From: Siphonodentalium dalli
Lineage: Eukaryota; Mollusca; Scaphopoda; Gadilida; Siphonodentaliidae
Reading direction: 5' to 3'
Length of the DNA stretch: 64,000 nt
Assembly: GCA_032622095.1 (NCBI GenBank)
Contig: CP136061.1
Location: 255,761,582 to 255,825,581, forward strand
Shown here: positions 1 to 63,778 of the stretch, piece after piece
How positions within the stretch are numbered: position 1 is the stretch's first letter
Layout: every line of letters starts with the position of its first letter
Program-made: the position numbers and the translations under genes
The notes under the pieces: generated by a model
Database searches by the model: none
The model's input: the letters and a program-made list of their open reading frames with translations, nothing else
What the model was told of the DNA's origin: nothing

Positions 1-93
1 GATATCCATATTTGTATGGTTCTATTGAGACAGACCGAAGATATTTTAGGCTGTTGAAGCTTTATTTGGCCGGTTTGTTGGGTAAAGGGTTAA
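1..93 (+). mobile_element. Family A TTAA element, right part only (cut by window edge)
   Basis: The first 93 bases match the right-hand segment of family A elements such as 59970-60370 and end in TGTTGGGTAAAGGG followed by TTAA. The left part lies outside the window. The terminal TTAA (90-93) is shared with the next element, family B, so two TTAA elements abut on one target site. No coding capacity. Confidence 0.9.
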
Positions 94-736
94 CCCTTTG
101 AGTGCCAGGTCCAATTTTTGTATCAACCCATATACCCTGTGCCAATGCATTCTCTTATATATGCGAGTCGACCATAGGTCGCCTCGCATATATAAGAGAA
201 TGCATTGGCTTAACAATTATTATTATTTTTTTTTTTTTTACAAATTTTTACAATTTTAATATATTTTATTATATTCTTTAACCCTTTACCCAACAGAAGG
301 GCCCTGTGCCAATGCATTCTCTTATATATGCGAGTCGACCATAGGTCGCCTCGCATATATAAGAGAATGCATTGGTTTAACACATTAATAATTATAAAAT
401 TGTTAAAGAATGTAATAAAAAATGGTAAAAAGTGTTAAAAAAAGATTTTGTTTAGGCCAATGCATTCTCTTATATATGCGAGGCGACCTATGATCGACTC
501 GCATATATAAGAAAATGCATTGGCACAGGGCATAACTGTAACTATCACAATGTGGTCAAGGAGCCGGTTCCGATGATATCCATATGTGTATGGTTCTATT
601 GAGACAGACCGAAGATATTTTAGGCTGTTGAAGCTTTATTTGGCCGGTTTTGGCCGGTTTGTTGGGTAAAGGGTTAACAGACTTATTGTGTAGGTTTAGG
701 GCCGATAATATCGGCCCCTGGCACTCAAAGGGTTAA
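90..736 (+). mobile_element. Family B TTAA element split by a family A insertion
   Basis: Starts TTAA-CCCTTTGAGTGCCAGG and ends CCTGGCACTCAAAGGG-TTAA, which are inverted termini. It contains one hairpin module (about 145-210) and a T-rich spacer. At 278-677 it is interrupted by a complete family A element. The intact copy at 48698-48948 has a single TTAA where this copy has two, so the insertion site and duplication are directly visible. TTAA targets and CCC-starting ends fit the piggyBac superfamily; no transposase is present. Confidence 0.92.
278..677 (+). mobile_element. Family A TTAA element, full length, nested in family B
   Basis: Bounded by TTAA (278-281 and 674-677), with inverted ends CCCTTTACCCAACA and TGTTGGGTAAAGGG. 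It contains two hairpin modules (about 307-375 and 457-524). The second is the reverse complement of the first, so the middle of the element also folds back. A conserved tail follows, with TTTGGCCGG repeated. There is no coding capacity. Piggybac-like MITE is the inferred class. Confidence 0.93.
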
Positions 737-2236: not shown

Positions 2237-2513
2237 TTAACCATTTCATGAGGTTCACGATGGGAGCTGAGCTGGTGCAGCATTAGAGACCCTGTGCCAG
2301 AGCATTCTCTAATATATGCAAGTCTCCCATAGGGAACCTGTTATATATAATAGAATTCACTGGCTTACAAAGTCAAGGTAAATATTGTTCGTCCAATGTA
2401 TTCTCTTATATATGCGAGACTCAATATAGGAGACTTGCATATATACATAAGACAATATATTGGCACAGGGTTTTCACAAATATTTCAGGATGCTCCAGTA
2501 ATGGAAGGGTTAA
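2237..2513 (-). mobile_element. Family E TTAA element, diverged
   Basis: Flanked by TTAA on both sides. The left end is diverged and the right end reads GCTCCAGTAATGGAAGGG. It contains two E-type hairpins (about 2291-2356 and 2394-2466), the first degraded. Orientation follows the GGTGCAGCATTA side being on the left. Confidence 0.82.
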
Positions 2514-3051: not shown

Positions 3052-3300
3052 TTAACCCTTTCATGATGGGAGCTGCGCTGGTGCAGCATTACAGACCCTG
3101 TGCCAGTGCATCCTCTTAAATATGCGAGGCTCCCTATATAAGAGAATGCACTGGCTTACAAGGTCAAGGAAAATATTGTTAGGCCAATGCATTCTCTTAT
3201 ATATGCAAGGTGCCCTATGGGCAACTTGTATATATAAGAGAATGCATTGGCACAGGGTTTTACGCAAAATTTCAGGAAGCTCCAGTCATGAAAGGGTTAA
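3052..3300 (-). mobile_element. Family E TTAA element, full length
   Basis: TTAA on both sides, with ends CCCTTTCATGATGGGAGCT and AGCTCCAGTCATGAAAGGG. Two E-type hairpins with TATATAAGAGAATGCA arms are present; the first is shortened. Plus- and minus-strand ORFs here are symmetric products of the hairpins. Confidence 0.92.
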
Positions 3301-3332: not shown

Positions 3333-3586
3333 CAAGCCTTGAAATAGTGTGTCTGTCATTTGCAGAATGAGGTTCCCAGAGGGTGAATTTAGTGATGCTA
3401 CCCCGCATAGCGGGCTAGCATCACCATATTCACCCTCTGGGGACCTCATTCTGCATACACCTCAGCAGAATAAGGTTCCCAGAGGGTGAATTTGGTTATG
3501 CTAGCCCACTATGCGGGGTAGCATCACTAACTTCACCCTCTGGGGACCTCATTCTGCAAATGACAGACACCCTATTTCAAGGCTTG
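3333..3586. mobile_element. Family D element, double-hairpin form, with 8-bp target duplication
   Basis: Inverted ends CAAGCCTTGAAATAGTGTG and its complement enclose two copies of the module GAATGAGGTNCCCAGAGGG / CCCTCTGGGGACCTCATTC. The flanks are GTAGTTGG at 3325-3332 and 3587-3594, a perfect 8-bp duplication. CA-starting ends plus 8-bp duplications suggest a hAT-like MITE. No coding region. Confidence 0.93.
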
Positions 3587-4285: not shown

Positions 4286-4537
4286 TTAACCCTTTGAGTG
4301 CCAGGTCAATTTTTGTATCAACCCATATACCCTGTGCCAATGCATTCTCTTATATATGCGAGTCGACGCGAGTCGACCATAGGTCGCCTCGCATATAAAA
4401 GAGAATGCATTGGCCTAACAATATTTTTTTTTTTTTTTTTTTTTTACAATTTTAATAATTTATTCTTATATTCTTTAACAGACTTATTTTGTAGGTTTAG
4501 GGCCGATGAGATCGGCCCCTGGCACTCAAAGGGTTAA
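4286..4537 (+). mobile_element. Family B TTAA element, full length
   Basis: TTAA-CCCTTTGAGTGCCAGG at the left and CCTGGCACTCAAAGGG-TTAA at the right, with one hairpin (about 4337-4413), a T-run and a GGGCCGATGAGATCGGCCC palindrome near the right end. The paralogous duplicate at about 2961 reads GGCTCTAAACC without the insert, showing the target was a single TTAA-like site. Confidence 0.93.
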
Positions 4538-9824: not shown

Positions 9825-9909
9825 TCATGACGGGAGCTGCGCTGGTGCAGCATTAAAGATCCTGTGCCACTGTGCATTCTCTTATATATGTGAGTCGCCC
9901 AAAGGGAAT
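9825..9909 (-). mobile_element. Family E fragment (GGTGCAGCATTA end)
   Basis: ATTCATGACGGGAGCTGCGC through part of the first hairpin arm, broken where family M sequence begins. The TTAA target is not preserved. Confidence 0.75.
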
Positions 9910-9911
9910 CA

Positions 9912-10426
9912 TAAATTCATTTTCATTATAATTACCATGTTGGTTGCATCAATCATAGAGCACTTGAGTCACCCCTGGTTAATTGGTCCTGCTAATATGC
10001 TATGATGCTGGTGGTCCTGCTGAATTGATATGATGGGGTATATAGGGCAATCTAACATTGTCATTTTTGAGGTGTTTGTCTAATCCAAGAGTTTTTGGGA
10101 AAAAACCAGTGTGTGTATGAAACATTCAAAAACATATCTGCTTTTGAATGGCTTTTCCTGTATATGTTCAGATTATCGGCACACCGCGAAAAAGGCAAAT
10201 TAAAAAAATATAACCGTCGTTTTGTTAACAGCATCAGTTTGCCCTAACAGCATCATAGCAATTCAGCAGGACTCAAATGCATCATAACCAGGGGTGTGAG
10301 TGTATTTTGCACTCGATCATCCATGGCTCAAATTCATTCATTTGTTGCATACATGTATATATTCTGTTGAGTAATAAAAGGAGATGGTCCCATAAATGGA
10401 TGGGTTTAGGGTACAGTCCCCCTTAA
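9912..10426. mobile_element. Family M copy 2, carrying a family N insertion
   Basis: The left arm 'ttcattttcattataatta' and the right end 'ggagatggtcccataaatg' to 'cagtccccctta' match family M at 13972-14752. The match is interrupted at about 9974-10292 by family N. The left terminus is missing. Confidence 0.7.
9974..10292. mobile_element. Family N fold-back element
   Basis: Bounded by CCTGGTTA and its inverted counterpart TAACCAGG, with 'ggtcctgct', 'gctatgatgctg' and 'gggcaa' motifs inverted between halves. The reverse complement of the right half matches 51961-52098. No coding capacity; class unknown. Confidence 0.6.
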
Positions 10427-12255: not shown

Positions 12256-12405
12256 GATCATGCCATGAATCTCTACTCTGTCTAACACCTGTAGAGATCA
12301 AATTCCACCAGTACAAAACCTGGGAACCTTTTGAAGTTTTGACAGGGAGCCTTATAAAGTTGAAATAATAATGCGGGAAATTTATTTCTCAGTTATTATC
12401 GGCTC
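12256..12405. mobile_element. Family H element, one arm
   Basis: TA followed by GATCATGCCATGAATCTC, then 'tagagatcaaattccaccag', 'cctgggaacct' and 'cagttattatc'. This matches the left arm of the complete copy at 45593-46119; the other arm is absent. Confidence 0.82.
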
Positions 12406-13698: not shown

Positions 13699-13974
13699 TT
13701 AACCCTTCCATGACTGGAGCTTCCTGAAATTTTGCGAAAACCCTGTGCCAATGAATTCTCTTATATATTGTATATTCGAGTCTCCCATAGGGAGCCTCGG
13801 ATATATAAGAGAATATATTGGCCTAACAATATTTACCATAACCTTGTAATTAAGCCAGTGCATTCTCTTACAAATGCGATTCTCCTTATGGGAGACTTGC
13901 ATAAATCCGTATATATAAAAAAATTAATGTTGCGCCTGCAGACTGTAGTGCTGCTCCCGTCATGAAAGAGTTAA
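13699..13974 (+). mobile_element. Family E TTAA element, full length
   Basis: TTAA-CCCTTCCATGACTGGAGC at the left and GCTCCCGTCATGAAAGAG-TTAA at the right. Two hairpins, the second diverged. The right TTAA is immediately followed by the family M terminus. Confidence 0.9.
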
Positions 13975-17862: not shown

Positions 17863-18241
17863 TTTACCCTTTACCCAACAGAACGGCCCTGTGCCAATGC
17901 ATTCTCTTATACATGTATATGCGAGTCGACAATAGGTCGCCTCGCATATATAAGAGAATGCATTGGCTTAACACATTAAAAATTATAAAATTGTTAAAGA
18001 ATGTAAGAAAACATTTTAGGCCAATGCATTCTCTTATATATGCGAGGCGACCTATGGTCGACTCGCATATATAAGAGAATGCATTGGCACAGGGCATAAC
18101 TGTAACTATCACAATGTGGTCAAGGAGCCGGTTCCAATGATATCCATATTTGTATGGTTCTATTGAGACAGACCGAAGATATTTTAGGCTGTTGAAGCTT
18201 TATTTGGCCGGTTTTGGCCGGTTTGTTGGGTAAAGGGTTAA
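17863..18241 (+). mobile_element. Family A TTAA element, full length
   Basis: Left end CCCTTTACCCAACA preceded by TTTA (one mismatch to TTAA); right end TGTTGGGTAAAGGG-TTAA. Both hairpin modules are present. Confidence 0.93.
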
Positions 18242-23485: not shown

Positions 23486-23779
23486 TTAACCCTTTGAGTG
23501 CCAGGGGCCAATCTCATCGGCCCTAAACCTACAAAATAAGTCTGTTAAAGAATATAAGAATAAATTATTAAAATTGTAAAAAATTGTAAAAAAACAAAAA
23601 AACAAAAAAACAAATTGTTAGGCCAATGCATTCTCTTATATATGTGAGGCGACCTATGGTCGATTCGCATATTCTTATATATGTGAGGCGACCTATGGTC
23701 GATTCGCATATATAAGAGAATGCATTGGGACAGGGTATATGGGTTGATACAAAAATCAACCTGGCACTCAAAGGGTTAA
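23486..23779 (-). mobile_element. Family B TTAA element with a duplicated hairpin segment
   Basis: TTAA-CCCTTTGAGTGCCAGG to CCTGGCACTCAAAGGG-TTAA, in reverse orientation. Within the hairpin a ~42-bp piece ('cttatatatgtgaggcgacc' to 'gattcgcat') is present twice (about 23634-23719), lengthening the arm. Confidence 0.92.
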
Positions 23780-24327: not shown

Positions 24328-24446
24328 GGGGAAAGACATGAAATGAAATCTAGTTAAAAAATATATTGTTTACATAAATATAAAAAAGTGAAGTCATTGA
24401 ATTATTAAGATATTAAATACTGACAAGATCTTGACCAATAAAACAC

Positions 24447-24807
24447 TTCCAATACTAGAGCTTCCTGAAATTTAGCAAAAACCCTGGGCCAATGCATTCT
24501 CTTATATATGTGAGTCTCCCATAGGGAGCCTCACATATATAAGAGACATTAGCCTAACAATATTTATCTCAACCTTGCAAGCCAGTGCTTTCTCTAATAT
24601 TTGCGAGGCTCCCTATGGGAGCTCACATACAGTAATGCCCTAATTAATCGACAACAAGCCATATTTCCGACTAAATCCTGAAAAGTTATCCATAATTCTG
24701 CTGTGGTTAAGGAGTCGATTACTTAGGGCATTACTGTATATAAGATAATGCAATGGCACAGGATATTTAATGCTGCACCAGCGCAGCTCCAGTCATGAAA
24801 GGGTTAA
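24447..24807 (+). mobile_element. Family E TTAA element carrying a family C insertion
   Basis: Left part 'actagagcttcctgaaattt' without a preserved TTAA; right end GCTCCAGTCATGAAAGGG-TTAA. The second hairpin is interrupted at 24630-24736 by family C. The left side ends CTCACATA and the right resumes TATATAAGATAATG, which rejoins to the normal E hairpin sequence after removing C and one TA. Confidence 0.88.
24630..24736. mobile_element. Family C TA element, half-size, nested in family E
   Basis: Both termini are intact and TA is duplicated, but most of the left arm is deleted (107 bp). It inserted into the TATATA of the E hairpin. Confidence 0.9.
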
Positions 24808-24920: not shown

Positions 24921-25281
24921 TTAACCCTTTACCCAACAGAAGGGCCCTGTGCCAATGCATTCTCTTATATATGCGAGTCGACCATAGGTCGCCTCGCATA
25001 TATAAGAGAATGCATTGGCTTAACACATTAAAAATTATAAAATTGTTAAAGAATGTAAGAAAAAATGGTAAAAAAAGATTTTTTTTAGGCCAATGCATTC
25101 TCTTATATATGCGAGGCAACCTATTGGCACAGGGCATAACTGTAACTATCACAATGTGGTCAATGAGCCGGTTCCAATGATATCCATATTTGCATGGTTC
25201 TATTGAGACAGACCGAAGATATTTTAGGCTGTTGAAGCTTTATTTGGCCGGTTTTGGCCGGTTTGTTGGGTAAAGGGTTAA
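24921..25281 (+). mobile_element. Family A TTAA element, second hairpin truncated
   Basis: TTAA at both ends and both A termini intact. The second hairpin lacks one arm ('gcgaggcaacctattggcac'), shortening the element to about 360 bp. Confidence 0.93.
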
Positions 25282-31043: not shown

Positions 31044-31443
31044 TTAACCCTTTACCCAACAAACCGGCCAAAACCGGCCAAATAAAGCTTCAACAGCCTA
31101 AAATATCTTCGGTCTGTCTCAATAGAACCATACAAATATGGATATCATTGGAATCGGCTCCTTGACCACATTGTGATAGTTACAGTTATGCCCTGTGCCA
31201 ATGCATTCTCTTATATATGCGAGTCGACCATAGGTCGCCTCGCATATATAAGAGAATGCATTGGCCTAAAAAAAATCTTTTTTTAACACTTTTTACCATT
31301 TTTTCTTACATTCTTTAACAATTTTATAATTTTTAATGTGTTAAGCCAATGCATTCTCTTATATATGCGAGGCGACCTATGGTCGACTCGCATATATAAG
31401 AGAATGCATTGGCACAGGGCCGTTCTGTTGGGTAAAGGGTTAA
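31044..31443 (-). mobile_element. Family A TTAA element, full length
   Basis: Both TTAA sites, both termini and both hairpins intact. 400 bp, one of the best preserved copies. Confidence 0.95.
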
Positions 31444-33020: not shown

Positions 33021-33256
33021 TTAACCCTTTCAGTGCCAGCTAGGTCCGATTTTTGTATCAACCCATATACCCTGTGCCAATGCATTCTCTTATATATGCG
33101 ATTCGACCATAGGTCGCTCGCATATACATGTATAAGAGAATGCATTGGCCTAACAATTTTTCATCATTTGTTATTATTTTTTACAATTTTTTACAATTTT
33201 AATAATTTTTTCTTATATTCTTTAACAGACTTATTTTGTAAGTTTAGTGCCAGGGA
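33021..33256 (+). mobile_element. Family B TTAA element, right end truncated
   Basis: TTAA-CCCTTTCAGTGCCAGCTA start, one hairpin, T-rich spacer, then 'acttattttgtaagtttagtg', where it breaks before the GGCCGAT palindrome. Confidence 0.88.
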
Positions 33257-33459: not shown

Positions 33460-33686
33460 TTAACCCTTTCATGATGGGAGCAGCATTAAAGACTCTCTGC
33501 CAGTGCATTATCTTATATATACGAGTCTCCCATAGGGAACTTCGCATTTAACAGAATGAACTGGCTTACAAGGTCAAGGTAGAGAGTGTTAGGCGAGGGA
33601 CACTCGCACATATAAGAGAATGTATCTGGCAGTTTGGCACAGGGCTTTCACAAAATTTCAGGAAGCTCCAGTCATGGAATTGTTAA
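33460..33686 (-). mobile_element. Family E TTAA element, diverged
   Basis: TTAA-CCCTTTCATGATGGGAGC to GCTCCAGTCATGGAATTG-TTAA. Both hairpins are eroded. Confidence 0.82.
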
Positions 33687-33900
33687 ACTACCTTTATGGA
33701 GCCTCTCACAGACATGAGCAGACGAGAGTCAGCAATACCAGCTATCACCTGTATGGGGCTCCCTACAGGAAGCTCCAGTCATGGAATTGTTAAACTACCT
33801 TTATGGAGCCTCTCACAGACATGAGCAGACGAGAGTCAGCAATACCAGCTATCACCTGTATGGGGCTCCCTACAGGAAGCTCCAGTCATAGAAGGGTTAA
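33659..33900. repeat. 107-bp tandem duplication seeded by the family E terminus
   Basis: CAGGAAGCTCCAGTCATGGA recurs at 33659, 33766 and 33873 (period 107). The first two are followed by an identical 'actacctttatggagcctc' segment. The third ends in GAAGGG-TTAA, the normal E end. Confidence 0.88.
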
Positions 33901-33940: not shown

Positions 33941-34341
33941 TTAACCCTTTACCCAACAAACCGGCCAAAACCGGCCAAATAAAGCTTCAACAGCCTAAAA
34001 TATCTTCGGTCTGTCTCAATAGAACCATACAAATATGGATATCATTCGAACCGGCTCCTTGACCACATTGTGATAGTTACAGTTATGCTCTGTGCCAATG
34101 CATTCTCTTATATATGCGAGTCGACCATAGGTCGCCTCGCATATATAAGAGAATGCATTGGCCTAAAAAATATCTTTTTTTTAACACTTTTTACCATTTT
34201 TTCTTACATTCTTTAACAATTTTATAATTTTTAATGTGTTAAGCCAATGCATTCTCTTATATATGCGAGGCGACCTATGGTCGACTCGCATATATAAGAG
34301 AATGCATTGGCACAGGGCCATTCTGTTGGGTAAAGGGTTAA
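33941..34341 (-). mobile_element. Family A TTAA element, full length
   Basis: TTAA at both ends, both termini and both hairpins intact, 401 bp. Confidence 0.95.
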
Positions 34342-34811: not shown

Positions 34812-34998
34812 GGGAGCCTCATATATATAAAAGAATGTACTGGCTTACAAGGTCAAGGTAAATATTGTTAAGCCAATACATGTATGTATTCTCTTATATA
34901 TGCAAGGCTCTCTATACAAGAGACTCACATATATAAGAGAATGCATTGGTCCAGGGTTTTCGCAAAATTTCAGGAAGCTTCAGTCATGGAAGTGTTAA
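34812..34998 (-). mobile_element. Family E fragment, second copy in tandem
   Basis: The same order as 34546-34735, ending TTCAGTCATGGAAGTG-TTAA. Both share 'gccaatacatgtatgtattc', a change not seen in other E copies, so the pair probably arose by local duplication. Confidence 0.78.
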
Positions 34999-37071: not shown

Positions 37072-37221
37072 TGGTGGAATATGATCTCTACGGGCATTAG
37101 ACAGAGTAGAGATTCATGGCATGGTGGAATATTATCTCTACGGGCGTTATCCAGAGTAGAGATTCATGGCATGGTGGAATATGATATCTACGGGCGTTAG
37201 CCAGAGTAGAGATTCATGGCA
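37072..37221. repeat. 50-bp tandem triplication inside a family H terminus
   Basis: TGGTGGAATATGATCTCTAC, then 'cgggc', starts at 37072, 37122 and 37172 with 'agagtagagattcatggca' completing each unit. Other H copies have one. Confidence 0.9.
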
Positions 37222-37226
37222 TGATC

Positions 37227-37722: not shown

Positions 37723-38091
37723 TTAACCCTTTACCCAACAAACCGGCCAAAAACGGCCAAATAAAGCTGCAACAGCCTAAATTATCTTGGGTCTGTCTCA
37801 ATAAAACCATACAAATATGGATATCATTGGAACCGGCTCATTGACCACATTGTGATGATTACAGCTATGCCCTGTGCCAATGCATTCTCTTATATTATAA
37901 GAGAATGCATTGGCCTAAAAAAATCTTTTTTTAACACTTTTTACCATTTTTTCTTACATTCTTTAACAATTTTATAATTTTTAATGTTATAAGCCAATGC
38001 ATTCTCTTATATATGCGAGGCGACCTATGGTCGACTCGCATATATAAGAGAATGCATTGGCACAGGGCCGTTCTGTTGGGTAAAGGGTTAA
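37723..38091 (-). mobile_element. Family A TTAA element, first hairpin collapsed
   Basis: TTAA and termini intact. The internal hairpin at 37877-37914 has lost its loop and inner arms, leaving a 38-bp perfect palindrome around TTATAA. Confidence 0.94.
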
Positions 38092-39793: not shown

Positions 39794-40063
39794 TTAACCC
39801 TTCCATGACTGGATCTTCCTGAAATTTAGCAAAAACAATGTGCCAATGCATTCTCTTATATATGTGAGTCTCCCATAGGGAGCCCTCGCATATATACTAG
39901 TAAGAGAATAGATTGGCCTAACAATATTGATCTTGAACTTGTAAGCCAGTGAATTCGCTTATATATGCGAGGCTCCCTATGGGAGACCCGCATATATATG
40001 AGAATACACTGGCACAGGATCTTTAATGCTGCACCGGTGCAGCTCCCATCGTGAAAGGGTTAA
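39794..40063 (+). mobile_element. Family E TTAA element, full length
   Basis: TTAA-CCCTTCCATGACTGGATC to GCTCCCATCGTGAAAGGG-TTAA, with two hairpins largely intact. Confidence 0.93.
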
Positions 40064-44239: not shown

Positions 44240-44848
44240 CAGTAATGCCCTAAGTAATCGACTCCTTAACCCTTTACCCAACAATCCGGCCAAAACCGGC
44301 CAAATAAAGCTTCAACAGCCTAAAATATCTTCGGTCTGTCTCAATAAAACCATACACATATGGATATCATTGGAACCGGCTCATTGACCACATTGTGATG
44401 GTTATAGTTATGCCCTGTGCCAATGCATTCTCTTATATATGCGAGTCGACCATAGGTCGCCTCGCATATATAAGAGAATGCATTGGCCTAAAAAAAATCT
44501 TTTTTTAACACTTTTTACCATTTTTTCTTACATTCTTTAACAATTTTATAATTTTTAATGTGTTAAGCCAATGCATTCTCTTATATATGCGAGGCGACCT
44601 ATGGTCGACTCGCATATATAAGAGAATGCATTGGCACAGGGCCCTTCTGTTGGGTAAAGGGTTAAACACAGCAGAATTATGGGTAACTTTTCAGGATTTA
44701 GTCAGAAATATGGCTTGTTGCCATTCATCGGAAAGCTCTCCCCGAGAGCTTTCCGATGAATGGCAACAAGCCATATTTCCGACTAAATCCTGAAAAGTTA
44801 CCCATAATTCTGCTGTGTTTAAGGAGTCGATTACTTGGTGCATTACTG
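44240..44848. mobile_element. Family C TA element, middle layer of the nest
   Basis: TA-CAGTAATGCCC to TGCATTACTG-TA. It is split at CTCCTTAA by a family A element; after it the sequence resumes TTAA-ACACAGCAGAATTATG. Confidence 0.95.
44266..44665 (-). mobile_element. Family A TTAA element, innermost layer of the nest
   Basis: 400 bp, TTAA at 44266-44269 and 44662-44665, both hairpins intact. It used the TTAA in the left arm of family C. Confidence 0.96.
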
Positions 44849-45151: not shown

Positions 45152-45525
45152 TTAGCCCTTTACCCAACAGAATGGCCCTGTGCCAATGCATTATCTTATA
45201 TATGCGAGTCGACCATAGGTCGCCTCGCATATATAAGAGAATGCATTGGTTTAACACATTAAAAATTATAAAATTGTTAAAGAATGTAAGAAAAAATGGT
45301 AAAAAGTGTTAAAATTTTTTTTTTTTAGGCCAATGTATTCTCTTATATATGCGAGGCGACCTATGCATTGGCACAGGGCATAACTGTAACTATCACAATG
45401 TGGTCAAGGAGCCGATTCCAATGATATCCATATTTATATGGTTCTATTGATGCAGACCGAAGATATTTTAGGCTGTTGAAGCTTTATTTGACCGGTTTTG
45501 GCCGTTTTGTTGGGTAAAGGGTTAA
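45152..45525 (+). mobile_element. Family A TTAA element, second hairpin truncated
   Basis: The left target reads TTAG, the right TTAA. Termini intact. The second hairpin lacks its right arm, as in the copy at 24921. Confidence 0.92.
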
Positions 45526-46495: not shown

Positions 46496-46676
46496 TGATT
46501 GATATAACGGTTTGGTGAGAATCTTTTACAATCTGAACCCCATGGCAAAAACATTTTATTTAAAAAAAATTACATTTTCAGTAAAAACAAAAAGTTGCCA
46601 ACTAATTACAACTGGACATCAATTGAATTAGTTTTTCCCTTCTGGGAGTTTCTATATCCCTTGACAATTGATATCA

Positions 46677-47480: not shown

Positions 47481-48250
47481 CAAGCCTGTAAATAGTGTGT
47501 CTGTCATTTGCATAATGACCCAGAGGGTGAATTTAGTGATGCTATCGCGCACAGCAGGCTAACATCATCAAATTCACCCTCTGGGAACCTCATTCTGCTT
47601 TGGCCTTAACCCTTTACCCAACAAAATGGCCAAAACCGGCCAAATAAAGCTTCAACAGTCTAAAATATCTTCGGTCTGTCTCAATAGAACCATACAAATA
47701 TGGATATCATTGCAACCGGCTCCTTGACCACATTGTGATAGTTACAGTTATGCCCTGTGCCAATGCATTCTCTTATATATGTGAGTCGACCATAGGTCGC
47801 CTCGCATATATAAGAGAATGCATTGGCCTAAAAAACACTTTTTACCATTTTTCTTACATTCTTTAACAATTTTATAATTTTTAATGTGTTAAGCAAATGC
47901 ATTCTCTTATATATGCGAGGCGACCTATGGTCGACTCGCATATATAAGAGAATGCATTGGCACAGGGCCCTTCTGTTGGGTAAAGGGTTAACTCCCCTCG
48001 ATATGCAATGTATAGTCTGCAAATAAGAGGATGCAGAAACTTCCCAGAAAAAGTAACTAATTGCTTGATTATGCAAAGTGACGTCTGTCAATTTGGGGAT
48101 ATAGAGAAACTAAACTAAACAAGACATAGAATCTACATGTATGTGAAGAAGTTTCTATAGAATTTGATAATAAGAAGAAGAGGTCTAAGCAGAATGAGGT
48201 CCCCAGAGGGTGAATTTAGTGAGGTCCCCAGAGGGTGAATTTAGTGAGGG
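47481..48250 (+). mobile_element. Family D element interrupted by family A
   Basis: CAAGCCTGTAAATAGTGTG starts directly after the TA of the preceding family C. The left hairpin is followed by TTAA (47606), family A, then the D middle ('ggggatatagagaaactaaa'). The right hairpin arm is duplicated (GAGGTCCCCAGAGGGTGAAT twice), then truncated. Confidence 0.85.
47606..47991 (-). mobile_element. Family A TTAA element, full length, nested in family D
   Basis: TTAA at both ends and both termini and hairpins present. A short deletion in the T-rich spacer. Confidence 0.94.
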
Positions 48251-48697: not shown

Positions 48698-48948
48698 TTA
48701 ACCCTTTGAGTGCCAGGTCCGATTTGTATATCAACCCATATACCCTGTGCCAATGCATTCTCTTATATATGCGAGTCGACCATAGGTCGCCTCGCATATA
48801 TAAGAGAATGCATTGGCTTAACATTTGTTTTTTTTTGTTTTTTTTTTACATTTTTTTACAATTTTAATATATTTTATTATATTCTTTAACAGACTTATTG
48901 TGTAGGTTTAGGGCCGATAATATCGGCCCCTGGCACTCAAAGGGTTAA
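48698..48948 (+). mobile_element. Family B TTAA element, intact reference copy
   Basis: 251 bp with TTAA at both ends, full termini, one hairpin (48747-48814), T-run, and GGGCCGATAATATCGGCCCC near the right end. It has a single TTAA (48886-48889) at the place where family A is inserted in the copy at 90-736. Confidence 0.95.
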
Positions 48949-48974: not shown

Positions 48975-50511
48975 TTATCTAGTCATCATTGGGTTAATTA
49001 TAAATATTAATTAGTTTAGGAGTTATGTGATTGTGATCTATCGAATGCTGAGTTTGTGTTTCGTGCATATTCAATAAGTTTATTCGTAATGACCGGATAA
49101 TAAGGTGAGGATTACCTGGCAGTGCGGTGCCAATTTAAATCAATTATTGACGAGATTGGGTAAAAATCATGGCGTCTGTCATGTAATGCATTACCACATT
49201 TTCTTTGGTGAGATTAATATTTTATTTTGTTGTCTGTGTATCTGTATGATGGATGTCTTGAGGAGTACAGTCATAATGAGCGAAAGAATATCAATTATTA
49301 GTGAATGCAACTCAATGTAGTCATGCAGGTAGTAACCCTTTATTTTATATGCGAGTCTATACATGTATGTATATATATATATAAATATAATATGACCATA
49401 CGCTAGCGTAATTAACGAACCACAGCTAAAACACACGCACAAGCTAGGATATATCTGCCTTTATTAAATCTTATAAAAAATAACTTCATACATTCGTATT
49501 CCCATCAAATAAGATTCAATTAGGCCTTATGTCGTGGTATGATTAATTACACTTCAGACATGCACAATGGAATGGTTCATCAAATTTTGTATATCAATTA
49601 GGCCAATCACACATCAGGGCATGTGAGAAATCGGAGATTCACAATGCAAACAGACTACGAGCTCACAACGTCAGACTTAAAACCTAAAAAAAAATTTTTA
49701 AAAGCTGTACCTTTTGTGCAAATTATTATAGAATATAAACTCCCAACATCAAACTGAAAGTGTTCAAAAGACAAGACTGTTGGCTATTGTCGAGAGGGGA
49801 GTATTTTAGTGAAATTAACCATTATATTATTGACGCTGTGTGCACCATCCGATTGAGATGTGTACTATACGAAGAATGTTCATTTCATTCATAAAATGCC
49901 ATCATGTCGATTTCAACGAAACTCGACGAACAACTTCATCATGTAGCTTTCATTATAGACCGATTTCGCGATAACCTGAATGTATCTTCTGCTTTGTTGT
50001 TAAGTTAAGTATGTGTGCCTTGTGAATTCATGGAAATAGAAGGATATCAAAGGATTATCAGATTCACGTATGTAATATTAGGATAATTTGAATGCGATAT
50101 AACGTTTGCATGTATCACAAATTTCGATTTCAATACCAACATTGTCTCCTGTCCTGCCAGAGTCATTGGTATTTTCCCATTGCATGCACGATTTTTATTT
50201 TAGGCCATTCCAATGCAAATAGTTGAGTCCTTAATATGTCATAATTATGTTCTCAATAAAATGTAAACCGCAGCTACAAATGAACTCTGCATAATTCAGA
50301 TTGTAACTTCCCCCATTTTGTAATACCGGGAATTGAAAGACACACACGTTTATTTCCGATTACGACATTAATGCTTTAAGCCCACCGATCTACTGTGCGA
50401 CAAAGGCGCTCGCAAAATTTCAAAACAACAGTGTCGTATTAGATAATAATTGGTGACATAACAAAATCAGCTATAGTCTATATACGACCCAAAGCGTCCG
50501 GCTATGGTTCG
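48975..50511. other. Long unassigned stretch
   Basis: No repeat family of this window matches apart from a short 'atatgcgagtctatacatg' remnant at 49350. Frames of 70-83 codons at 49105-49442 lack recognisable domains. Candidate unique intronic or intergenic DNA. Confidence 0.5.
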
Positions 50512-50677
50512 TTATAAGAGAATGCATTGACCTAACAATATTTACCTTGATCTTGTAAGCCAGTGCATTCTCTTATATATGTGAGGCTCCCTATGAGCGA
50601 CACGCATATATAAGAGAATACACTGGAACATGATCCTTAATGCTGCACCAGCGCTGCTCCCATCATGAAAGGGTCAA
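50512..50677 (+). mobile_element. Family E right part
   Basis: Starts in the right arm of the first hairpin, then 'ttaccttgatcttgtaagcc', the second hairpin and CTCCCATCATGAAAGGG followed by TCAA (eroded TTAA). Confidence 0.85.
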
Positions 50678-51492: not shown

Positions 51493-51510
51493 ACAATATA
51501 AAGTGAGGTT

Positions 51511-51779
51511 ATAACTCTTTAATGACCGGAGCTGCGCTGGTGCAGCATTAAAGATCCTGTGCCAGTGCATTCTCTTATATATGTGAGTCTCCCATAGGGA
51601 GCCTTGCATATATAAGAGAATGCACTGGTTTACAAGGTCAAGGTAAATATTGTTAGGCCAATGTATTCTCTTATACATGTATATGCGAGGCTCCCTATGG
51701 GAGACTTGCATATATAAGATAATGCATTGGCACAGGGTTTTCACAAAATTTCAGGAAGCTCCAGTCATGGAAGGGTTAA
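51511..51779 (-). mobile_element. Family E TTAA element, full length
   Basis: The left target is eroded (ATAA), then CTCTTTAATGACCGGAGCT. The right end is GCTCCAGTCATGGAAGGG-TTAA. Two good hairpins. Confidence 0.9.
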
Positions 51780-59969: not shown

Positions 59970-60370
59970 TTAACCCTTTACCCAACAGAAGGGCCCTGTG
60001 CCAATGCATTCTCTTATATATGCGAGTCGACCATAGGTCGCCTCGCATATATAAGAGAATGTATTGGCTTAACACATTAAAAATTATAAAATTGTTAAAG
60101 AATGTAAGAAAAAATGGTAAAAAGTGTTAAAAAAAAGATTTTTTTTAGGCCAATGCATTCTCTTATATATGCGAGGCGACCTATGGTCGACTCGCATATA
60201 TAAGAGAATGCATTGGCACAGGGCATAACTGTAACTATCACAATGTGGTCAAGGAGCCGGTTCCAATGATATCCATATTTGTATGGTTCTATTGAGACAG
60301 ACCGAAGATATTTTAGGCTGTTGAAGCTTTATTTGGCCGGTTTTGGCCGGTTTGTTGGGTAAAGGGTTAA
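59970..60370 (+). mobile_element. Family A TTAA element, full length
   Basis: 401 bp with TTAA at both ends and both hairpins, the best-preserved plus-orientation copy. Confidence 0.96.
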
Positions 60371-60573: not shown

Positions 60574-60823
60574 CAGTAATGCCCTAAATAATCGACTCCT
60601 TAACCACAGCAGAATTATGGGTAACTTTTCAGGATTTAGTCGGAAATATGGCTTGTTGCCATTCATCGGAAAGCTTTCACTGAGAGCTTTCCGATGAATG
60701 GCAACAAGCCATATCACTGAGAGCTTTCCGATGAATGGCAACAAGCCATATTTCCGACTAAATCCTGAAAAGTTACCCATAATTCTGCTGTGGTTAAGGA
60801 GTCGATTAATTAGGGCATTACAG
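60574..60823. mobile_element. Family C TA element with internal tandem duplication
   Basis: TA-CAGTAATGCCC to GGGCATTACAG-TA. The segment 'gagctttccgatgaatggca' to 'acaagccatat' near the centre is present twice, lengthening the element to 250 bp. Confidence 0.93.
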
Positions 60824-61182: not shown

Positions 61183-63085
61183 AATTAATATATAAGAATG
61201 ACAGTGTGTGTTGTCAATTTGGATATGATATTTGTTAAAATAACTAAATTGAGCAAGATTTTCCTCCCTTTCTATTTGATCACCATACCCGAGTGTGTCA
61301 CATCACTTTCAGATTATTTTTTTATTTTTCATTTTATCACTTTAAGATTATTCACCATTTCTATTTGATCAAAATACTGAATGCTTCACATCACTTCAAG
61401 ATTATTCTCCCTTTCTAAGTTGATCACCATGTATACCGGAGAGTTTCACATCACTTTAAGATTATTCTCCCTTTCTATTTGATCACCATGCATACCGGAG
61501 TGTTTCACATCACTTTAAGATTATTCTCCATTTCTAATTGATCACCATGCATACCGGAGTGTTTCACATCACTTTAAGATTATTCTCCATTACTATTTGA
61601 TCACCATACCAAGTGTTTCACATCACTTTAAGATTATTCTCCCTTTCTACTTGATCACCATACCAGAGTGTTTCACATCACTTCAAGATTATTCTCCCTT
61701 TCTATTTGATCACCATGCCGGAGTGTTTCACTTCACTTTAAGATTATTCTCCATTTCTATTTGATCACCATGCATACCGGAGTGTTTCACATCACTTTAA
61801 GATTATTCTCCATTTCTATTTGATCACCATACCGAGTGTTTCAGATCATTTTAAGATTATTCTCCCTTTCTATTTGATCACAATACCGGAATGTTTCACA
61901 TCACTTTAAGATTATTCTCCCTTTCTATTTGATTACCATAACGGAGTGTTTCACATCACTTTAAGATTATTCTCCCTTTCTATCTGATCACCATACCGAG
62001 TGTTTCATATCACTTTAAGATTATTCTCCCTTTCTATTTGATCACCATACTGGAGTGTTTCACATCACTTTAAGATTAATCTCCCTTTCTGTTTGATCAC
62101 CATACCGGAGTGTTTCACGTCACTTTAAGATTATTCTCCATTTATATTTGATCACCATAACGGAGTGTTTCACATCACTTTAAGATTATTCTCCCTTTCT
62201 ATTTGATCACCATACCGAGTGTTTCACATCACTTTAAGATTTTCTCCCTTTCTATTGATCACCATGCATACCGGAGTGTTTCACATCACTTTAAGATTAT
62301 TCTCCATTTCTATTTGATCACCATGCCGGAGTGTTTCACTTCACTTTAAGATTATTCTCCATTTCTATTTGATCACCATGCATACCGGAGTGTTTCACAT
62401 CACTTTAAGATTATTCTCCATTTCTATTTGATCACCATACCGAGTGTTTCAGATCATTTTAAGATTATTCTCCCTTTCTATTTGATCACAATACCGGAAT
62501 GTTTCACATCACTTTAAGATTATTCTCCCTTTCTATTTGATCACCATAACGGAGTGTTTCACATCACTTTAAGATTATTCTCCCTTTCTATTTGATCACC
62601 ATACCGAGTGTTTCACATCACTTTAAGATTATTCTCCCTTTCTATTGATCACAATGCATACCGGAGTGTTTCACATCACTTTAAGATTATTCTCCCTTTC
62701 CATTTGATCACCATGCATACCGGAGTGTTTCACATCACTTTAAGATTATTCTCCATTTCTATTTGATCAGCATACTGGAGTGTTTCACATCACTTTAAGA
62801 TTATTCTCCATTTCTATTTGATCACCATACCAGACTGTTGCACATCACATTAAGATTATTCTCCCTTGCCATTTGATCACCATGGATACTGGAGTGTTTC
62901 ACATTACTTTAAGATTATTCTCCCTTGCCAATTGATCACCATGCATACCGGAGTGTTTCACATTACTTTAAGATTATTCTCCCTTTCTATTTGATCACCA
63001 TGCATACAGGAGTGTTTCACATCACTTTCAGATTATTCCCCCTTTCTATTTGATGACCAAACCGATGTGTTTCACATCACTTTAA
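61183..63085 (-). repeat. 55-bp satellite (~33 copies) grown from the end of a family J element
   Basis: 61183-61240 is the reverse complement of family J interior (as at 38266-38320). From about 61255 the unit TTTCTATTTGATCACCATAC + CGGAGTGTTTCACATCACTT + TAAGATTATTCTCCC repeats to CACATCACTTTAA at 63085, the normal J terminus. The unit equals the first ~55 bp of J. Variants with CATGCATACC versus CATACC form higher-order patterns; a block at about 61690-62000 recurs at about 62290-62600. Confidence 0.95.
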
Positions 63086-63516
63086 GGGCATATGTTTATG
63101 TGGCAGGCGATTTAAGAACAATAAGTGAGAAGTAAGCATAACTAGTAAATAAAAAATAACCAAGGTTTATTGTACTAGTAGACATGATCAGGGTTTCTAT
63201 GGGTGTTGCTAGGTGTGTTAAATGCCCACTTAATTTTCGAACCCCCATATTACATTATATAAAATATCTGCCATATTATATACCATTTGAAAGAGGAATC
63301 TCCAAAACATTGCATTATCAAATTATCCGGGGTAATAAACTGTGAACATGTCGTTTGTGTTCAGGTACTGACATGTTTTTGTGCTTAAGTTTCATCTGGT
63401 TTCTACTGCAAAGTCTATAATTTTCAATGGAAGGGGAATAAGTCTATATCTTAGTTTGAATTCTGTTGCATTCTGGGAGTGAGATGGGGGGGGGGGGGGA
63501 ATGTTTCTATCAGAGT
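63086..63516. other. Unassigned stretch
   Basis: Contains a 13-base G-run (63487-63499). No gene or family recognised. Confidence 0.45.
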
Positions 63517-63524
63517 AATCAAGT

Positions 63525-63778
63525 CAAGCCTTGAAATAGGGTGTCTGTCATTTGCAGAATGAGGTCCACAGAGGGTGAATTTAGTGATGCTACCCCACAT
63601 AGCAGGCTAGCATCACCAAATTCACCCTCTGGGGACCTCATTCTGCTTACACCTCAGCAGAATGAGGTTCCCAGAGGGTGAATTTGGTGATGCTAGCCTG
63701 CTATGTGGGGTAGCATCACAAAATTCACCCTCTGGGGACCTTATTCTGCAAATGACAGACACGCTATTTCAAGGCTTG
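63525..63778. mobile_element. Family D element, double-hairpin form, perfect target duplication
   Basis: CAAGCCTTGAAATAGGGTG to TATTTCAAGGCTTG, same layout as 3333-3586 including the CTTACACCTCAGCAGAATGA junction between hairpins. AATCAAGT at 63517-63524 and 63779-63786. Confidence 0.95.

Follow-up and report, generated by a model that had tools for sequence, protein, structure and literature searches.

Why do three families of TTAA elements with different terminal repeats carry the same hairpin, and why does the stem of this hairpin differ between families on both arms at once? The question is raised by a hairpin of 67 bp at positions 309-375 of the window (the whole stretch of DNA analysed, 64 kb), preceded at 307-308 by the TG of a shared CCCTGTG. 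In a preliminary description the matched changes had been ascribed either to a constraint on pairing or to conversion between arms, and the hairpin had been proposed as a module moving between families.

TTAA families and their common hairpin

Judged by their sequence, the three families (A, B and E) are non-autonomous MITEs of the piggyBac (TTAA) type. All their tips start with CCCTT, fitting the terminal motif CC[C/T]T of piggyBac-type MITEs as defined in PMC2872659. Family A has TTAACCCTTTACCCAACA ends and is represented by 10 copies with both ends (361-401 bp), eight of them with TTAA on both sides, A2 and A8 having TTTA and TTAG respectively at one end. All 10 contain two inverted hairpin sites, the right one being incomplete in A3, A6 and A8 (Table 1). 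Family B (ends TTAACCCTTTGAGTGCCAGG, about 250 bp) contains one hairpin and was found in five copies, one of them without the right end. The ends of E resemble TTAACCCTTTCATGAyGGGAGC (14 tips at up to 3 mismatches, 0.00 expected) and complete elements have two hairpins in about 270 bp. The elements are short and non-coding; the stop-to-stop frames of at least 100 aa that overlap A2 and A3 come from a mechanical listing and were not taken as genes. No transposase was detected among 10 ORFs scanned from the window, none of which matched Pfam at or above the curated cut-off. A1 interrupts B1 at a TTAA, and the rejoined flanks of B1 match the uninterrupted B5, demonstrating target duplication and past movement.

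A 20-base word from the hairpin arm matched 77 times in the window with up to 3 mismatches, against a mean of 0.00 and a maximum of 0 in 100 shuffles, confirming that the same hairpin of about 67 bp is carried by A, B and E. With 26 bases of the arm and up to 8 mismatches, a scan recovered 83 arms, from which 36 pairs were computed. Curation by hand removed a tandem duplicate and an interrupted pair, added two pairs and trimmed three, ending again at 36 hairpins; the list excludes 11 unpaired or decayed arms that had no usable partner. The hairpins belong to A (18), B (5) and E (13), and 23/36 are exactly 67 bp long. On the outer side, an exact CCCTGTG precedes 27 of them and variants of it the other nine. 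Hairpins are arranged as inverted pairs in both A and E, a feature absent from the preliminary description.

The hairpin stem has 31 pairs. CGACC-ATA-GGTCG, described before as the inner stem of A and B, was indeed found in 15 of the 18 A hairpins and in all five of B (six occurrences, one B being tandemly duplicated). CTCCC-ATA-GGGAG, attributed to E, is the commonest form in this family (6/13) but not the only one, since two copies have GGGAA as right arm, one (E2R) has TGCCC/GGGCA, a third inner form, and the remainder are decayed or deleted. The T/C mismatch said to be common to both stem forms was retained in 20 of the 21 hairpins that have both letters (22 hairpins compared), the exception being E1R with T/T.

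An identical 6-bp insertion, generating TATACATGTATA, is found in one hairpin arm of A2, B4 and E10 (at 17910, 33125 and 51674). For the word TACATGTA, 23 occurrences were counted in the window where trinucleotide composition predicts 2.0, an excess indicating that a local mechanism or the spread of a motif may be at work; no occurrence of it was shown among the matches listed in a literature search.

Table 1 Elements and hairpins of families A, B and E in the window
Feature	Positions	Strand	Remarks
Left hairpin of A1	309..375	+	Hairpin that raised the question; inner CGACC/GGTCG, T/C mismatch, ATA loop
Right hairpin of A1, inverted	457..523	-	Two one-sided changes
Element A1	278..677	+	400 bp, TTAACCCTTTACCCAACA ends; sits in TTAA of B1
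Element B1	90..736	+	Ends TTAACCCTTTGAGTGCCAGG; split by A1; own hairpin 142-208
Element E1	2237..2513	+	Hairpins 2297-2363, 2393-2463
Element E2	3052..3300	+	Left hairpin 3103-3154 without centre; right 3184-3250 with TGCCC/GGGCA
Element B2	4286..4537	+	10-bp tandem duplication within hairpin 4337-4413
E fragment (E11)	9869..9912	+	Inner CGCCC / GGGAA, pair 29/39 = G.A, read by eye
Element E3	13699..13974	-	
Element A2	17863..18241	+	Hairpins 17894-17966, 18021-18087; 6-bp insertion in one arm
Element B3	23486..23779	-	Hairpin centre duplicated in tandem: two identical 39-bp units, 23634-23711
Element E4	24435..24807	-	One hairpin split by another repeat
Element A3	24921..25281	+	Right hairpin without one arm
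Element A4	31044..31443	-	
Element B4	33021..33251	+	Without right end; 6-bp insertion in one arm
Element E5	33460..33690	+	Decayed
Element A5	33941..34341	-	
E-type element E7, partial	34812..34998	+	Hairpin 34881-34949
Element A6	37723..38091	-	Right hairpin without inner stem
Element E8	39794..40063	-	
Element A7	44266..44665	-	
Element A8	45152..45525	+	Right hairpin without one arm
Element A9	47606..47991	-	
Element B5	48698..48948	+	Uninterrupted; shows the B1 site as it would be without A1
Element E9, partial	50511..50677	-	Inner CGCTC/GGGAG, pair 29/39 = G.A
Element E10	51510..51779	+	Hairpins 51562-51628, 51658-51730
Element A10	59970..60370	+	

Core and ends of the elements

A and B have the same hairpin consensus, from which that of the right E hairpin deviates at 4/67 positions. 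Past the first nine or ten bases, five comparisons between the outer parts of different families gave P values from 0.41 to 0.93, in agreement with the different terminal repeats noted at the outset. Beyond TTAACCCTT(T) the outer parts are unrelated, so descent from a single ancestor with drift at the ends only finds no support here. The two ends of E do resemble each other (P=0.003). Next to its right hairpin, A has a spacer that can be aligned with B2 along 44 bp (P=0.002) and, in a T-rich alignment whose register differs from that with B2, with the spacer of B5 (P=0.014). Furthermore, B2 has the same 13 bases that come first inside the right hairpin of E (P=0.001); the E and A spacers compare at P=0.056. 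Because the shared stretch exceeds the hairpin, including the spacer between A and B and the 13 bp between B and E, the common unit is a core and not the hairpin alone. This core consists of two inverted hairpins with short flanks in A and E and of one palindrome in B, A and B sharing also the spacer, and a shared core with replaced ends is the account of the family relationships that fits best.

The proposed movement of the hairpin between families was not borne out. All 36 listed hairpins are within A, B or E and the shared stretch is larger than the hairpin; hopping of the hairpin alone was rejected for lack of a single case among them. The classification of E as a separate, unrelated repeat was also rejected given the 13 bp beside the hairpin that E and B2 have in common. 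A separate solo arm was found at 46674, with a flank that has no assigned family.

Matched changes between families, one-sided changes in copies

The two inner-stem positions reported to have changed on both arms were recovered as neighbouring pairs that differ between A/B and E, 29/39 (G:C against T:A) and 30/38 (A:T against C:G). Among the 12 E hairpins with a centre, C:G at 30/38 is present in all and T:A at 29/39 in 10, the two others having G.A (E9L) and G:C (E2R). A further pair that had escaped the preliminary description, 4/64 in the outer stem, distinguishes the hairpins within E, being G:C in 6/6 left and A:T in 7/7 right ones. Within the stem the consensus forms differ at these three pairs only, always on both sides and always as Watson-Crick pairs. 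With random placement over 67 sites, complementarity not counted, four differences would fall into two pairs with a probability of 6.1e-4 and two differences into one pair with 1.4e-2. Covariation was evaluated with five measures and 500 shuffles in the 23 ungapped copies (11 distinct), which are related to each other. The score (0.163 against 0.097 shuffled) was reached by 0/500 shuffles, and the paired cells and the cells changed on both sides exceeded 500/500. Pairs with both sides changed numbered 5, a value reached by 63/500, and the number of extra pair types was reached by 419/500. As the copies are related to one another, few events are represented.

This kinship, which inflates covariation scores, and the two of five measures reached by many shuffles speak for a reading of the changes as three inherited accidents, in which each founder happened to carry a newly formed palindrome, built from a different half by inverted duplication and neither constrained nor converted afterwards. 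Few differences separate the families, all of them fixed, and the same inner form is found in both hairpins of a family, as would result from duplication. However, palindromes formed anew would not keep this T/C mismatch and ATA loop oriented alike, from the outside inwards, in B and in the two hairpins of A and of E, making this origin improbable.

Changes private to single copies were counted against the family consensus in 22 of the 36 hairpins, namely 13/13 of E and 9 variant copies among the 23 of A/B. The A/B hairpins omitted are mostly unchanged; B3, with one-sided changes at 26 and 45 in each of its tandem units, was omitted as well, and in B4 a change facing a gap was uncounted. In E, 46 pairs had changed on one side, 6 on both sides to Watson-Crick pairs and 5 on both sides to unpaired letters, while A/B gave 8 one-sided and 0 two-sided changes. 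Three of the six matched E pairs (24, 28 and 29 relative to the E consensus) are in E2R, which has one one-sided change; outside it there are only 3 matched changes (E1R, E4R and E7R) against 45 one-sided. When arms were swapped between copies (12 of the 13 E hairpins, pair 4/64 left out), pairing went from 306/355 cells (86.2%) to 84.2% (P=0.0495, or P=0.31 without E2R).

The matched changes therefore mark off families, not resident copies. As the private changes of resident copies are one-sided, matching is a property of the family founders, and the nearly equal pairing of swapped arms indicates that resident copies are neither corrected nor visibly constrained. The initial alternative between pairing constraint and arm conversion stands only in part: the double changes hold and a constraint is possible, but frequent or ongoing conversion is unsupported, and continuous homogenisation of arms in resident copies was rejected on the same counts (46 against 6 in E, 8 against 0 in A/B).

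Conservation of the hairpins relative to the rest of the element varied with the family. In A, 9 of 1256 hairpin bases were changed, compared with 53 of 2527 in the rest of the element (P=0.001); counting distinct variants the values were 9 and 42 (P=0.016), and P=0.06 when compared with the outer flanks only. All 9 variants shared among A copies were located outside the hairpins, but neither the table of shared against private variants (P=0.33) nor singletons alone (P=0.14) reached significance. Hairpins were no less changed than the rest in E (86/961 against 75/900, P=0.68) or in B (9/335 against 23/644, P=0.57).

Possible filtering of symmetry during amplification, and comparison with known systems

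The contrast between founders and residents suggests that the symmetry of the hairpin mattered in the copies that multiply and was shed freely by those left behind. We tentatively infer, with somewhat less than even confidence, that the symmetry of the core is filtered when elements multiply and not afterwards. The core is made of near-perfect palindromes, each with CCCTGTG on its outer side, two of them inverted in A and E and one in B, and source elements in which they stayed symmetric would have transposed better. Most simply, a putative dimeric transposase domain would read the palindrome as duplex DNA; as a second possibility, extruded or paired arms would select for symmetry. Changes would become fixed in both half-sites stepwise, through one-sided intermediates, inserted copies would decay uncorrected, and a core acquiring other ends would give rise to new families. 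Cysteine-rich domains of piggyBac and piggyBat have been described as binding subterminal palindromes (PMC11707139), and if two such domains bound this one, both half-sites would change together in the duplex with no need of a hairpin. A constraint on pairing is possible, but a dyad-symmetric duplex site or a few template switches could account for the same data.

The states of pair 29/39 provide a possible stepwise path, from G:C (A, B and E2R) through G.A (E9L, and E11 at 9869 by eye) to T:A (10/12 of E), although G.A could instead reflect private mutations at one site. That these mispaired intermediates exist implies either that full symmetry is not essential or that the G.A copies were inserted otherwise. 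The lower rate of change in the A hairpins speaks for filtering of symmetry, which is weakened by the number of founder-level pair changes, three only, by the lack of hairpin conservation in E and B, by the tests on shared variants and singletons in A that fell short of significance and by the failure to detect a transposase among the 10 ORFs scanned.

These three changes fit equally well rare template switching at replication, in which one arm was copied onto the other in source elements, a purely mutational process with no selection needed that we regard as possible, if less probable than symmetry filtering. The mechanism has been described for RNA hairpins, where clusters of compensatory changes are enriched (PMC8794818). 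Here the changed pairs 29 and 30 adjoin each other, E2R combines three matched pairs with a single one-sided change, and rearrangements linked to the hairpin are common (centres lost in A6 and E2, arms lost in A3 and A8, a 39-bp duplication in B3). However, frequent switching would have left matched private changes, and outside E2R these are 3 against 45 in E and 0 against 8 in A/B; the T/C mismatch and the ATA loop stayed unconverted, and G29 of E2R may be ancestral, which reduces the number of events. As in the cases treated in the accessible text of PMC8794818, matched two-arm clusters could derive from one event, but those cases are rRNA and microRNA genes, and here we deal with a transposon repeat in which resident changes are mostly one-sided.

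Selection of RNA pairing, in a putative small-RNA precursor or structured transcript, is very unlikely. An A copy folds at -50.9 kcal/mol against -11.7 for shuffles, with the 31-pair stem, but such folding is expected of any palindrome of 67 bp; moreover, no Rfam family was found at its threshold in the window and G-U pairs were never used by the founder-level changes.

The closest precedent, as far as the accessible text of its description goes, are the CMITEs of Acropora corals (Wang et al. 2010, PMC2872659), TTAA MITEs with CCCTTT-type ends assigned to piggyBac. Their interior is conserved across families with differing terminal repeats, a role in transposition was suggested, and composites arise by insertion of one MITE in another. 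TTAA, CCCTTT-type ends, conserved interior, changing ends and composites all recur in A/B/E, where the hairpin, with 4/67 differences between A/B and right E, is likewise more conserved across families than the terminal repeats. CMITEs are smaller (about 100 bp with an interior of 75 bases, against about 250-400 bp with one or two 67-bp palindromes), and that text describes no double changes on two arms like those between the A/B/E consensus forms. A CMITE-like 16-mer was found in none of the 10 A elements nor at the listed B and E coordinates, pointing to a similar architecture with another interior sequence. PiggyBac and piggyBat ends have the TTAA target in common with A/B/E, and their subterminal palindromes, bound by two cysteine-rich domains, are 19 bp and about 14 bp long (PMC11707139), whereas those of A/B/E are 67 bp with 31 paired positions. 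The interior of the coral TTAA MITEs was left unexplained in 2010; here the interior is palindromic, differs in matched fashion from one family to another and is present in many copies in 64 kb. Genome-wide numbers of shared and of private changes would tell selection acting on source elements apart from template switching. This distinction is usually difficult to address, as the copies resident in a genome decay. A more specific idea, rather unlikely at present, is that the core with its two palindromes is a portable module for transposition, acquired by piggyBac-type ends that differ in specificity, its half-sites changing in matched pairs as they adapt to each transposase. If so, natural families would be a readable record of the co-evolution of a symmetric site and its transposase.

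Among the openly accessible papers listed in literature searches, we saw no prior report of the A/B/E hairpin. Of six motif strings, only CCCTTTGAGTGCC was found there, in two papers with titles on microRNAs in heart muscle. Exact scans of prokaryotic and viral contig collections gave 0 matches, which given the scope of these collections says little about an animal-like genome, and the first 760 bases had no plasmid match.

Other repeats are also present in the window. A 50-bp tandem repeat at 37072-37223 contains GGCGTTAGCCAGAGTA-like words, found also at 12274, 28035 and 46086, that are close to the coral CMITE interior word GGCGTTAGACAGAGTA (PMC2872659); the CMITE-like 16-mer has 6 matches in the window with up to 3 mismatches against 0.16 expected. 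Another palindromic repeat, GGAAATATGGCTTGTTGCC with its inverse, is located at 1900-2090, 24620-24740, 44240-44690 and 60677-60751, one copy splitting E4 and another containing A7. Finally, a satellite-like array of about 31 copies of a 55-bp unit extends from 61336 to 63086, and a similar 103-bp tandem repeat appears twice, near both ends of the window (3362-3558 and 63554-63749).
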